Origin: Pedobacter helvus
GTDB taxonomy: Bacteria; Bacteroidota; Bacteroidia; Sphingobacteriales; Sphingobacteriaceae
DNA length: 64,000 nucleotides
NCBI RefSeq assembly: GCF_005925325.1
Contig: NZ_SRMP01000008.1
Span: 44,676-108,675 of the forward strand
Direction: 5' to 3'
Positions 23,131 to 53,801 of this stretch are shown piece by piece. A program made the position numbers and the translations under genes. The notes beneath the pieces were generated by a model, which ran no database searches, was not told where the DNA came from, and saw only the letters and a program-made list of their open reading frames with translations. Within the stretch, counting starts at the first letter, position 1; each line of letters opens with the position of its first letter.

Positions 23131-23173
23131 TAAACCTGATAGCAGCGGCACGCAGTAGAGCGAATAGCAGGGC
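23131..23173. repeat. diverged copy of the CCTGAT...AGCAGGGC repeat
   Basis: It begins TAAACCTGAT and ends TAGCAGGGC like the copies at 29596-29666 and 33856-33925, but the central part is shorter and different. Confidence 0.5.
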
Positions 23174-49941: not shown

Positions 49942-50100
49942 TTATGCTTTATGACGACGCTCGTCAGAAACTGATAATCTTTTTCTTCCTTTAGCACGGC
50001 GAGAAGCTAAAACTCTTCTACCATTTGCTGTAGCCATTCTTTCGCGGAAGCCATGTTTATTTCTTCTCTTTCTTTGCGAAGGTTGGAATGTTCTTTTCAT
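49942..50100 (-). CDS. rpmH: 50S ribosomal protein L34
   Basis: The protein has 52 residues, from [18 protein letters not shown] to [10 protein letters not shown], the normal L34 length and conserved start. A shorter gene than the usual reporting limit but fully supported. It leads the rpmH-rnpA-yidD operon, the standard bacterial order, transcribed leftward. Confidence 0.97.
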
Positions 50101-50139
50101 AACTATATAATATCTTAACTAGAGTTTTTAATCGAGGTG

Positions 50140-50147
50140 CAAATATA
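50140..50147 (-). promoter_or_regulatory. Bacteroidota -7 promoter element of rpmH
   Basis: On the minus strand TATATTTG matches TAnnTTTG, about 40 bases before the rpmH start. Confidence 0.5.
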
Positions 50148-50311
50148 AAGCGATATTTTTAAATATGCAAAAAGTATTTACTTTTCTTTTCTGAAAGGCA
50201 AAGATAATGATTATTAGATGAGTTTAGTTTACCATACCAAATTCATTTCGAGATAGCCGCTATAATTATCGATGAGATTGGGATATTTTCGCTGCCTCCG
50301 AGCCCAAACAC

Positions 50312-50346
50312 AAAAAAGCCCGATAGGTGACCTAAACCTATCGAGC
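50312..50346 (-). terminator. Rho-independent terminator
   Basis: GCCCGATAGGT/ACCTATCGAGC (11 bp with one mismatch) is followed on the minus strand by T6, just past the lmo0937-like gene. Confidence 0.85.
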
Positions 50347-50378
50347 CTCATTTATTAACTAACTACAAATTTTTCTAT

Positions 50379-50531
50379 CTATGCAGCACCCCTTATTACT
50401 CTCAATAAGATGGCTACGATAGCTATTACCAATAATGCGTGAATAATTCCGCCAGTGTAATAACCCCCTAAAAAACTAATTGCCCAAATGATTACTAATA
50501 TTACGGCAATTACGTATAATAAATTCCCCAT
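50379..50531 (-). CDS. 50-residue lmo0937-family membrane protein
   Basis: The frame from ATG at 50531 reads MGNLLYVIAVILVIIWAISF and LGGYYTGGIIHALLVIAIVA then ILLRVIRGAA. Two hydrophobic helices and the GNLLYVIAVILVI-type start with GG..GGIIH..L are typical of lmo0937-family small membrane proteins, often stress-induced. Between it and the IS110 element there is a terminator-like hairpin. Its role is unknown. Confidence 0.85.
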   Translation of the reverse strand: MGNLLYVIAVILVIIWAISFLGGYYTGGIIHALLVIAIVAILLRVIRGAA

Positions 50532-50627
50532 GACTATGATGTTTAAGTAATTAAAAATTGTTAATTGATTTGATTACTACTTAAACACACAGTATTTAAA
50601 AATTGTTCTATATTTTTTTCGGAACAC

Positions 50628-50679
50628 AAAAAAAGCCACAGCTGCACAGATTTTCAATCTTATCTATGTAGCTGTGGCC
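50628..50679 (-). terminator. Rho-independent terminator, probably of the LytTR operon before IS insertion
   Basis: GCCACAGCT (50635-50643) pairs with AGCTGTGGC (50670-50678); inside the loop AGATT/AATCT can pair further. On the minus strand seven T follow the stem. It is just outside the predicted right end of the IS110 element; joining the flanks at the AT core puts this hairpin about 30 bases after the LytTR stop codon. Confidence 0.8.
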
Positions 50680-50725
50680 AATAAACCCGTATTCTATGGT
50701 TTTTACAAATGAATTTTGAAATATT

Positions 50726-51734
50726 TTAAGCTACTGCATTGAATTCCTTTTGATACGGCCTGTCTTTTAACACTGCTGCAAATGCCCTGCTAATTAGTTT
50801 ATTTCTGATTACGTTTAGGACTGAAGAATGATGTTTCCCTTCTTTGATCTTTCTGTCATAATACCTTTTGAACTCGTTATCTTTCTTAATCGTGTTTAAT
50901 GCACACATAGTTAATAGTGTCTTTATCCTTTTTTTCGCCAGATGGCTGACCTTTGGCTTTCCCTTCAATGTGGTTCCCGATTCGTTTCCGAAAGGTGCCA
51001 ATCCGCAATAGCAGGCAAATTTCCTTGGGTTTTCGAACAGGGTAAAGCCCTGTGTGAGCACCACGATGAACATCGCCGTCTGTGCTCCAATACCATGGAC
51101 AGTCCTTACAAGGTTATATTGTTTTTCAAGTGCGGGATCTTCTCTAACACATGTCAAGAGCCTTCCCTCGAGCATATTGATTTTGTTGTCATATTCATTA
51201 ACCAACGATTTCCTGATATCCAGGGTAAAATCTGCGGATTCCCTATCGAAGACCTCAAGTTCCCCCAGGGCATTTTTTCAGGGCGGTCTGTTGTTTTACC
51301 AGTTGCCTCCTACAGCTCATCAGATGTTTCAGCCTGCTAATGGTCTTGCTTGGCAGCTTGAAAAGAATTGCCCTGCGCCTGTGCAGGAAGCCATAGTTTG
51401 CTATCTCTGCCGCATCCGCTTTATCCGACTTGCCACGTTTTAAACCTAACGACCGTTTCAGCCTGAGTGCATTCTCCACCCAGAGATTACCTCCCTGTCC
51501 ATCAAAATAAGTGCAGATCGGCAGTGTGTAGAGCCCTGTGTCCTCAGCACAGAAAAGCATGTCAGAAATTGAAAGGCCGGTAATCTCATTTATCCAGGAG
51601 ACCATCTTAAAACAGCCTTCATCGCTGTTCTCGAAACACTCATGGAACTGCTTGTCGGGGTTGTCGGCAAGGAAAAACACAACATCTATTTTCAGTTTTG
51701 AAACGTCGATGCCCGCAAATAATCTGTAATTCAT
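50726..51734 (-). pseudogene. IS110-family transposase, interrupted by a one-base frameshift
   Basis: Two frames cover 51734-51255 and 51205-50726. The first has the RuvC-like DEDD domain: Asp10 (GIDVSK), Glu64 (FCAEDTG), Asp104 and Asp107 (SDKADA). The second has the C-terminal Tnp domain with HGIGAQTA and NESGTTLKGKPKVSHLA, containing the candidate catalytic Ser, and runs to the end. The break lies in a run of six A (minus strand, 51278-51273): removing one A lets LKNALGELEVFDRESADF continue directly into the second part, for a normal total of 335 residues. It is either an inactivating mutation, a sequencing error at a homopolymer, or transcriptional slippage. Confidence 0.85.
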
Positions 51735-51770
51735 AACTTCGGGTTGTTAAGTGGAACAAAATAACCTTGA

Positions 51771-51994
51771 TGTTGAATAAAACTAAATCCCTTAACGGTC
51801 CGGCAAAGACTAAAATTCTATATGGTTCTTTTTCAACAAGCGGCAGTGCTCGCATACGGGTTTTAGATTTTTAATCTAGATAGAGTAATAGTTCAGCACT
51901 GCCGTTAAGGTTTTTCACAAATCTCAAACTTTTTTGATAATAACAAACCTAAGGGATAGCAAACACTCCGTTCCCATTTCCGAATGGTGAGAAC
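51771..51994 (-). ncRNA. candidate bridge RNA of the IS110 element
   Basis: The 5' non-coding region of the IS folds, on the minus strand, into: a 5' hairpin (GUUC..CCAUU/AAUGG..GAAC, 51994-51970); a first loop closed by CGGCAGUGCU/AGCACUGCCG (51904-51895 with 51850-51841) around the small stem UAGAUU/AAUCUA; and a second loop closed by GUUGAA/UUCAAC (51838-51833 with 51776-51771). In loop 1, ACUCUAU (51886-51880) equals the left flank (52019-52013) and AAACCCGUAU (51863-51854) is complementary to the right flank (50692-50683). In loop 2, AUAGAAU (51821-51815) equals the right IS end (50697-50691), and AAGGGAU (51793-51787) pairs, with one G-T, with the left IS end (52014-52008). All four guides finish on the AT core. 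Known bridge RNAs (IS621) have target guides in loop 1 and donor guides in loop 2 with the same polarity. Transcript ends are not determined. Confidence 0.7.
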
Positions 51995-52027
51995 AAACAG
52001 TCCTTAAAAGAGATAGAGTGAGTTTTT

Positions 52028-52762
52028 TTAAATCCCTAAAGCAGCTTTTAATTTAACATAACCTGTTTTGCTTACGGGCAGCCAAATTCCAGATTTTAGC
52101 AGCACCACATAGGTTTCCTTTTCTTTAAGCTCTATTTTGGTAACTTGAGCCAAATTAATGATATAAGAGCGATGAATACGAATGAACTGCGTTGAGTCTA
52201 GCGTTTGCTCAAAGAAACTCATCGTTTTATTTTTTTGGAAATTGCCCTCAGTGGTACTCAGTTTTACATAGTCATCATCTGCTTCGAGGTAATTAATCGC
52301 TTCTACAGGAATAATCTTTATTACTCCAGCATTTTTTACTACTACCCTATTATTCTGTGCTGGCGACAAAGAAGCTGTTTCTAACAACTCCTGACTATCA
52401 TCGCCTTTGGCTAATTTTGAAGGCAATTTTTGCATGGCTTGCTCAAAACGACCTTGCTCAATCGGTTTCAAGAGATAATCTACCGCATTTACTTCGAACG
52501 CCTTAATGGCATATTCATCAAAAGCAGTGGTAAAAATTACAGCTGGCCTGTTCTCTACCAACTCCAACATTTCAAAACCACTAATTTTCGGCATTTGGAT
52601 ATCTAAAAAGATCAGATCTGGCTGATGTTGAGTTATCGCTTTTAACCCTTCAAAACCATCGCTACATTCGGCTACCACCTCGATATTTGGGAAAGCTTTT
52701 AAATAATGCTTTACAATATCTCTGGCAAGGGCTTCATCATCAATGAGTATGGTTTTGATCAT
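52028..52762 (-). CDS. LytTR-family response regulator
   Basis: The protein has 244 residues: receiver domain with DDE near residue 8 and phospho-acceptor Asp54 in FLDIQMP, then a LytTR DNA-binding domain from about 140 (IKIIPVEAINYLEADDDYVKL, RIHRSYIINL). Regulates transcription when phosphorylated by the kinase encoded upstream. The gene overlaps the kinase's end by 23 bases. Its own terminator appears to have been separated by the IS110 insertion 16 bases past the stop, so transcripts may now read into the element. Confidence 0.93.
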   Translation of the reverse strand: MIKTILIDDEALARDIVKHYLKAFPNIEVVAECSDGFEGLKAITQHQPDLIFLDIQMPKISGFEMLELVENRPAVIFTTAFDEYAIKAFEVNAVDYLLKPIEQGRFEQAMQKLPSKLAKGDDSQELLETASLSPAQNNRVVVKNAGVIKIIPVEAINYLEADDDYVKLSTTEGNFQKNKTMSFFEQTLDSTQFIRIHRSYIINLAQVTKIELKEKETYVVLLKSGIWLPVSKTGYVKLKAALGI

Positions 52763-53801
52763 CTTTTTGAGGTATTTTTAGAGTGGTAATATACAAATTA
52801 TTGTTTTGCGATTCGGCTTGTAACAAGTTGCTATCGGCAAAAAGTAAGTACAATCTTCGTCTAATGGCCGAAAGTCCGAAACCGGTACCTTTTGATGCTT
52901 TCATTTCCGGATCGTAAGGATTGGTGACGCAAATGATCAGCATATTGTTTTCCAACTTCACATCAAGTGTAATGGTAATTGCCGTTGATGTATTGTACAA
53001 ACCGAATTTAATGGCATTTTCTACAATGGGTTGCAACAATGTGCCGGGTAAATGAAGTGCCAAAGTTTCTTCTGCAATATTGACCTCAACACTCAACCTA
53101 TGGCTAAAACGAACTTTTTCGATATCCAAATACAGTTGGATGTACTCCATCTCATCAGCCACGCTAACCCAAACTTCGTCATCTCGTTTAAGTGTACCAC
53201 GTAAAAATGCAGCCAATTTGGTAATCATGGTACCTGCTTCGGTTGGATTTACAATCGTTAAGGCATAAACCGAGTTTAAACTGTTGAACAAAAAATGTGG
53301 CTGCAATTGGTGACGAAGCTTATTCAATTCGGCTTCCTTCGCCAAGTTTTGTGTAGCCAACATTCTTGCCTGCATTTCCGACTGTTCTTCCAATCGGTAC
53401 CATAAGATATTAGCTAATGCACACCAGGCCAAACAAATAAAAGAAACTGCAGATTTAAAAACATCAGACAGATCTAAAAAAGAAATATAGCTAGTTTCAT
53501 TAGCGAATAAAAAGGTTAAGCTGTATTTAGATGCAATTACAACAGCAGCAGAAATAACTAGGGTTACCAGTAAAACATATAATAACTTTTCGTTTTTAGG
53601 CTGATAAAAGCCAAGCATGTTACTAATAATGATACAACCAATGGCTAAATACGAATTACTAATTACGCTATCTGCCAATGAAATTTGCCAAGAAAAGTTA
53701 AAGAAAAAATATAATACCGCGGCACTTGCAGCTTGACAGCATAGCAGAATAATGCTGGCAATTGTCTTGATCTGCGGTTTTGATAGTGGTGTGGTTGTCA
53801 A
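52740..53801 (-). CDS. sensor histidine kinase (LytS/YehU-type)
   Basis: The protein has 353 residues. Four N-terminal membrane helices (residues about 10-130) serve as a sensor without an obvious ligand domain, then a coiled stretch leads into the His-kinase domain: His169 in LQPHFLFNSLNS, N-box PIVENAIKFGL near 255 and G-box KGTGFGLSAIRRRL. It phosphorylates the LytTR regulator encoded next to it (overlap 23 bases). The LiaF-like gene upstream likely belongs to the same operon. Confidence 0.92.
   Translation of the reverse strand: MTTTPLSKPQIKTIASIILLCCQAASAAVLYFFFNFSWQISLADSVISNSYLAIGCIIISNMLGFYQPKNEKLLYVLLVTLVISAAVVIASKYSLTFLFANETSYISFLDLSDVFKSAVSFICLAWCALANILWYRLEEQSEMQARMLATQNLAKEAELNKLRHQLQPHFLFNSLNSVYALTIVNPTEAGTMITKLAAFLRGTLKRDDEVWVSVADEMEYIQLYLDIEKVRFSHRLSVEVNIAEETLALHLPGTLLQPIVENAIKFGLYNTSTAITITLDVKLENNMLIICVTNPYDPEMKASKGTGFGLSAIRRRLYLLFADSNLLQAESQNNNLYITTLKIPQKDDQNHTH

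Follow-up and report, generated by a model that had tools for sequence, protein, structure and literature searches.

The window, by which we mean the whole 64,000-nucleotide stretch of Pedobacter helvus DNA that was analysed, carries an IS110-type insertion sequence at about 51955-50690 on the minus strand, a length of 1266 bp that follows from homology to relatives and from their vacant sites. Its parts, with the evidence for each, are as follows.

50690..51955, minus strand: IS110-type element, from CCCTTAGG at its start to AGAATA at its end; edges from relatives and the relatives' vacant sites
51255..51734, minus strand: N-terminal half of the recombinase, PF01548; open reading frame and domain search
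50726..51205, minus strand: recombinase C-terminal half (PF02371), not in the frame of the N-terminal half; open reading frame and domain search, frame break relative to relatives
51770..51912, minus strand: bridge RNA (bRNA) region as modelled (model R1); covariance model and pair changes
51841..51904, minus strand: target-binding loop; outer stem 51904-51895 with 51850-51841
51772..51837, minus strand: donor-binding loop; outer stem GTTGAA/TTCAAC
51879..51888, minus strand: left target guide (LTG) TTACTCTATC; covariation across guide groups, weak match to its own flank
51854..51863, minus strand: right target guide (RTG), AAACCCG plus UAU, the UAU complementing the element end ATA
51815..51821, minus strand: left donor guide (LDG); 7 letters identical to the right end, 50697-50691
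51787..51793, minus strand: right donor guide (RDG) AAGGGAT; 7/7 pairing with ATCCCTT at 51957-51951
51956..51957, minus strand: target AT next to the left junction; relatives have AT or GT, retained in vacant sites
50683..50689, minus strand: right target CGGGTTT; right-edge rows, vacant sites and guide match
51956..52012, minus strand: flank included in the initial annotation by mistake; absent from relatives
51944..51951, minus strand: candidate -7 promoter element TAGGTTTG; junction reading, consensus TANNTTTG
50706..50708, minus strand: TTG that would stand 20 nt before TAGGTTTG in a circle; same position in 8/8 right ends

The left edge reads CCCTTAGGTTTG in 15 of 17 relatives, at the place of window position 51955 and with unrelated DNA upstream; the two exceptions, L010 with one base different and L012 without CCCTTAGGTTTG, both have degenerate left ends. 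Since the relatives begin there, positions 52012-51956 lie outside the element, and the left boundary first proposed, at 52012, was wrong by 57 bp. The excluded stretch is hairpin-like and is taken as a degenerate REP-like repeat, a nature judged by eye. On the right, ACCATA(G/A)AATAC(A/G)GGTTT is found in 11 of 12 rows, the window copy included (the row of L015, a chance right-end match, was dropped), and the element ends in ATA (50692-50690). One C is common to target and element, so that the element's first C may be target-derived. Of the other copies and homologues that the initial annotation had proposed seeking, homologues were found as DNA matches in 14 of 145 Pedobacter genomes, its own counted, and a scan of genome contigs gave five loci; no second copy was found in its own genome, where the element is single-copy, and the plasmid records searched held no match to it. 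Directly after the insertion stands a strong, terminator-like hairpin followed by a T run (window 50682-50631, minus strand), a hairpin that Rfam matches below threshold as a microRNA, and a short hydrophobic reading frame with the start MGNLLYVIAVILVIIW runs from window 50531 downwards on the minus strand. In the degenerate copy L010 (G077), CCTTAGGTTT comes after the ACTCTGT of a target loop, as if a left end lay inside a guide.

The IS110 domain pair, a DEDD/RuvC-like N-terminal PF01548 and a C-terminal PF02371, is present in the window copy, with 58.5 bits (cut-off 29) and 68.5 bits (cut-off 21.3) on the two halves, which bears out the transposase family first assigned. A single intact recombinase frame is absent, a feature that the initial annotation did not mention: the two halves lie in two frames, and comparison with relatives places the break at about 51275-51255 on the minus strand, as a net one-base difference beside an A run. 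The comparison covered 15 relatives, and in 14 of them the frame stays open for 339-355 codons from stop to stop, against 201 in L068 and 183 in the window copy, which looks broken by this frameshift. The IS110 model NF033542 of NCBIfam gives the window halves 69.5 and 69.9 against a cut-off of 140, and the intact relative L069 passes it with 143.8; the L069 recombinase also matches ISCro4 (1.7e-14) and IS621 (3e-14). The C-terminal half (50726-51205, minus strand) has in addition a weak match to a TIGR-Tas model, 20.4 bits with a cut-off of 100 and E = 0.0004.

Upstream of the gene, the element has a non-coding left end of 221 nt (51955 to 51735) that holds the bRNA as modelled. Positions 51913-51767 fold as two stem-loops with z = -2.78, equalled in stability by 1 of 200 shuffles, and the entire left end folds less markedly (z = -1.46, 15 of 200). 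Model R1, built from seven left ends, matches 20 of 399 family genomes, spread over 5 of 25 genera, and in the alignment of its 22 matches (19 distinct), 22 of 26 pairs show changes on both sides with 89.7% of cells paired. The covariation score of this alignment is 0.556, against 0.179 in shuffles and at most 0.115 in slides, figures that lean towards the model to which the alignment was fitted. An unfitted MAFFT alignment of the seven left ends scores 0.205 against 0.085 (0 of 500 shuffles), with five pairs changed on both sides, a count that 28 of 500 shuffles reach. The predicted two-loop fold with internal loops, which agrees with the two stem-loops originally drawn, is supported by these pair changes across related RNAs. 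Rfam, searched over 50000-53000, gave three matches up to E = 5, all under their gathering scores and none a bridge RNA by name.

The guides are best considered against the flanks. All letters quoted in the initial annotation stand where it placed them, and its bRNA in the left non-coding end, its order of target loop before donor loop, its guide polarity and its positions for RTG, LDG and RDG are retained. Its RTG match of 10/10, to ATACGGGTTT, goes beyond chance, a complementary run of that length occurring in 0 of 500 shuffles; the right flank accounts for 7 nt of it (CGGGTTT), and the other 3 nt pair with the element's own end. Among relatives, an RTG with CCC or CCU goes by eye with ACGGG or ACAGG respectively. 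The RDG had been placed correctly against a misplaced edge, and the corrected edge gives 7/7 pairing where the earlier one gave six pairs and a wobble. With LDG fitting the right end and RDG the left, loop 2 fits the donor on both sides; among these close relatives the donor ends hardly vary.

The left target match first proposed is not supported. The initial annotation had matched ACTCTAT, which is identical to part of loop 1, with 52019-52013, and had combined this left target with a start at 52012 and an AT core. CACTCT does occur near that place in the vacant locus of the nearest relative (L037), yet the relatives' edges and the better fit of RDG to the corrected edge speak against this reading; set against the 120 nt upstream of 51955, the 5' side of loop 1 has an 8-nt run in common with them, a length that 13 of 500 shuffles also attain, and 59 of 500 attain at least 7 nt. 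The ACTCTAT match, in the wrong place, is probably chance, and the reading built on it, already contradicted, is very improbable. In the window copy the LTG TTACTCTATC matches its own flank over CTAT only. Across 27 left flanks in 10 guide groups, all chosen for carrying CCCTTAGGTTTG, LTG and left flank vary together, the covariation that the initial annotation had put forward as a check: the match averages 5.39 of 9, compared with 4.35 (sd 0.27) when the guides are reassigned across groups by shuffling (p = 0.0002, a shuffling that leaves relatedness among groups in place, as for the p values that follow). Outside the two inner positions p is 0.00045, and at these two positions alone the covariation is not significant in this sample (p = 0.067). 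That the repeats and guide matches are all chance and no guide RNA exists is hardly credible: each match is short, which is what this reading has in its favour, and it would have to accommodate the pair covariation in the fold, the guide/flank covariation, the RTG match and the IS110 recombinase.

What the frameshift means for the window copy is a separate matter. The copy would either need a recombinase supplied in trans from elsewhere or be dead, and that it is a dead remnant whose RNA and guides were merely inherited, a view compatible with the explanation that we prefer, seems to us about evenly balanced. The break falls where 14 of the 15 compared relatives keep a long open frame, the genome has this one copy and the LTG fits its own site poorly; set against this, the element ends, stems and donor guides are all intact, and the indel, adjoining an A run, could be a sequencing error.

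Many left flanks are intergenic repeats with hairpins, ending in CGCTNNNAT or GT. Allowing at most one mismatch, the motif CGCTRYNATNNGGTTTA occurs at 24+32 places in the element's own genome and at 3+3 for the reversed control (56 against 6), and the smallest excess in eight genomes is 37 against 9 (G050). Judged from its sequence and distribution, the target is an interspersed REP-like repeat. Y1_Tnp proteins, the partners of REPs, were found in all four genomes searched. A further copy of the REP-like motif, CGCTGCTATCAGGTTTA, lies within the window at 23131-23147 on the minus strand (G000:C11:67806-67822).

To find vacant sites, 145 genomes were searched with the joined flanks of nine copies, and those of 15 copies were aligned to the loci fetched. 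This gave 26 junction-spanning alignments from 10 of the 15 copies, 23 of which have a clean gap facing the A of ATAC, the others being those of L188, L206 and L208; for L102, L069 and L196 represent a single place that entered the count twice, and some subject places (L189, L068, L196) are repeats within the same genome, not orthologous loci. The form (A/G)TAC(A/G)GG is found at a vacant site in none of the 26. The relatives' vacant target reads (A/G)T and then, across the junction, C(A/G)GG, the element end is ATA, and C alone is common, with exchange just before and just after it indistinguishable from sequence. As the vacant sites lack the element's A or ATA, target and donor share no dinucleotide in these relatives, and an IS621-like core, one dinucleotide in both target and donor, was not found there. 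At 51957-51956 the AT is part of the target, and the donor end is ATA; the single AT core at both ends of the initial annotation is not supported, the vacant sites of relatives having no A after the AT of the right junction. The g14 genus, a second lineage, agrees: for its five copies, none of 24 alignments shows inserted bases at the junction, the place expected for the element's ATA. These copies end in AGAATA in four of five (AGAAA in L094), and the exchange is preceded on its left by the dinucleotides GG, CC, GC, AC and GA. The g14 alignments of L109 and L094 fall on the same three places as those of L082, which are therefore related repeats, and in the four L085 alignments the junction is bordered by small gaps or changes. 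The right end of L094 reads AGAAACGGG, that of the other four g14 copies AGAATACGGG.

For the window copy itself no vacant site was found, a flanking gene stretch being matched in 143 of 144 genomes; 29 relatives' loci were fetched and 28 viewed past the gene's stop, and REP-like sequence was seen by eye in L039, L049, L055 and L062, none of which fits both flanks of the window copy. Exact (A/G)TAC(A/G)GGTTTA places without an element right end occur in G106:C19 (L034, L166), G117 (L167, L178) and G050 (L161, L172, L183); mostly REP-like, these could be excision scars or variants. They bear on the proposal that AT is after all a true shared core, insertion being restricted to uncommon REP variants in which ATAC(A/G)GGTTTA, fully complementary to the RTG, is already present. 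We consider this improbable. The 10/10 match of RTG and the exact element-free places (two in G106, one of them REP-like, two in G117 and three in G050) are what it would explain, while it conflicts with the 26 vacant alignments of 10 copies, with the second lineage, where the same element end meets unrelated targets, and with G081, where most of the ATAC(A/G)GGTTTA places listed are right ends of elements and 92 ordinary REP-type motif places remain. ATAC REP variants as targets were dropped after the vacant-site alignments of relatives. The two readings predict different circle junctions, CCATAGAATACCCTTAGG under the present edges and CCATAGAATCCCTTAGG under an AT core.

We hold with good confidence that the element is an IS110-group insertion sequence with a bridge RNA encoded in its left end, a REP-like target and guides that fit the products of insertion. 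The relatives' edges, the fold, the guide/flank covariation, the target repeat and the vacant sites form its basis, and from these we infer the transcription, circle, strand-exchange order and direction of the following cycle. In the excised circle the right end (..AGAATA) would be followed directly by the left end (CCCTTAGG..), and this junction, held by the donor loop, may build a promoter for the bRNA. The joined ends give TTG-N20-TAGGTTTG. According to passages of PMC6847099, the Bacteroidetes promoter consensus (-33/-7) is TTTG/TANNTTTG, and at its two N positions G, which TAGGTTTG has there, is virtually absent in Flavobacterium johnsoniae; this counts against the promoter reading. A circle or tandem junction pattern was found in 0 of 145 genomes. 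The target loop would locate a REP-like repeat, LTG on its left half and RTG on the CGGGTTT half, and the recombinase would swap strands beside the single common C, cutting the target after (A/G)T and the donor after ATA. After exchange, the 3' UAU of RTG would base-pair with ATA of the arriving donor end, and the 3' AU of RDG with the target end AT, or with GT by wobble. In IS621, passages of PMC11208158 report, top-strand cleavage falls after the core; RTG and RDG next base-pair with the core that comes in, and the handshake guides pair adjacently. Because target and donor have no common AT here, the 3' ends of RTG and RDG suit insertion products and not substrates, as the published handshake model predicts. 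From this better fit to products we infer that product pairing drives insertion forward, so that insertion would be favoured. In L081 the element apparently ends in AAAT followed by CGAGAT and its RTG reads ATCTCGATTT (by eye, from sequence), so that guide and donor end differ together.

In some relatives another target loop lies 114-142 nt upstream of the first: L082, L093 and L109 (three copies in G368), L083, L084, L085, L094, L078, L076 and L254. The tandem loops have partly different guides. The distal loop is less stable than the proximal in g14 (-11.8 to -15.2 against -18.9 kcal/mol) and in L078 (-17.0 against -23.8 kcal/mol), with the order reversed in L076 (-21.1 distal, -19.8 proximal), and g14 vacant sites place the distal loop within the element. 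A target-loop model matches 41 of 399 genomes, 7 of which have tandem pairs (G368, G382, G362, G386, G110, G230, G041) and none a triple; the distal loops of G110, G230 and G382, being in the training set, were found by construction. Compared by eye, g14 right flanks fit the proximal RTG, the G041 insertion fits the proximal loop, G110 is a tie and the flanks of L078 fit its distal loop slightly better.

Set beside known systems, this is an IS110 element with a bRNA, a known kind; less expected are the tandem target loops in three related lineages, within the element in one. With IS621, as described in passages of PMC11208160 and PMC11208158, it shares the DEDD recombinase, the bRNA in the left end with target loop before donor loop, the polarity of LTG, RTG, LDG and RDG, the REP targets and a predicted handshake pairing after exchange. 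It differs in that IS621 has a CT core common to target and donor where C alone is shared here, and in its longer RTG, with 7 nt in the flank. ISCro4 (structure 9t56), compared by recombinase sequence alone, is homologous over residues 6-323 of L069. In the seekRNA passages of PMC11187229 on IS110/IS1111, the non-coding region upstream of the gene sets target choice, as here; its authors state there that target duplication is not characteristic of the IS110 or IS1111 family, with which our vacant sites agree, and the passages hold no example of the clade studied here. The TIGR-Tas paper (passages of PMC12045711) ties Tas to IS110 via the Nop domain and describes tandem guide units, presenting the IS110 bRNA as one unit of two stems, whereas in some relatives here a pair of target stems precedes the donor stem. 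In the open-licence literature, covered largely by listing or passages, we found no description of tandem target loops in IS110 or of this element, and IS110 and Pedobacter together only in Paracoccus plasmid work. Tentatively, and with slightly less than even confidence, we suggest that the clade differs from IS621 twice, in having no common core dinucleotide and in right guides that encode the product and push insertion, and that some members have a two-address bridge RNA, which would be a natural intermediate between single-unit bRNAs and guide arrays; their tandem loops pose the question of whether a single bridge RNA can serve two sites. The element belongs to a natural multi-copy Bacteroidetes family whose guides, targets and vacant sites can be compared directly, and as its target and donor ends differ, unlike the identical cores of IS621, substrate and product pairing are separable and the handshake step becomes testable with natural sequences.
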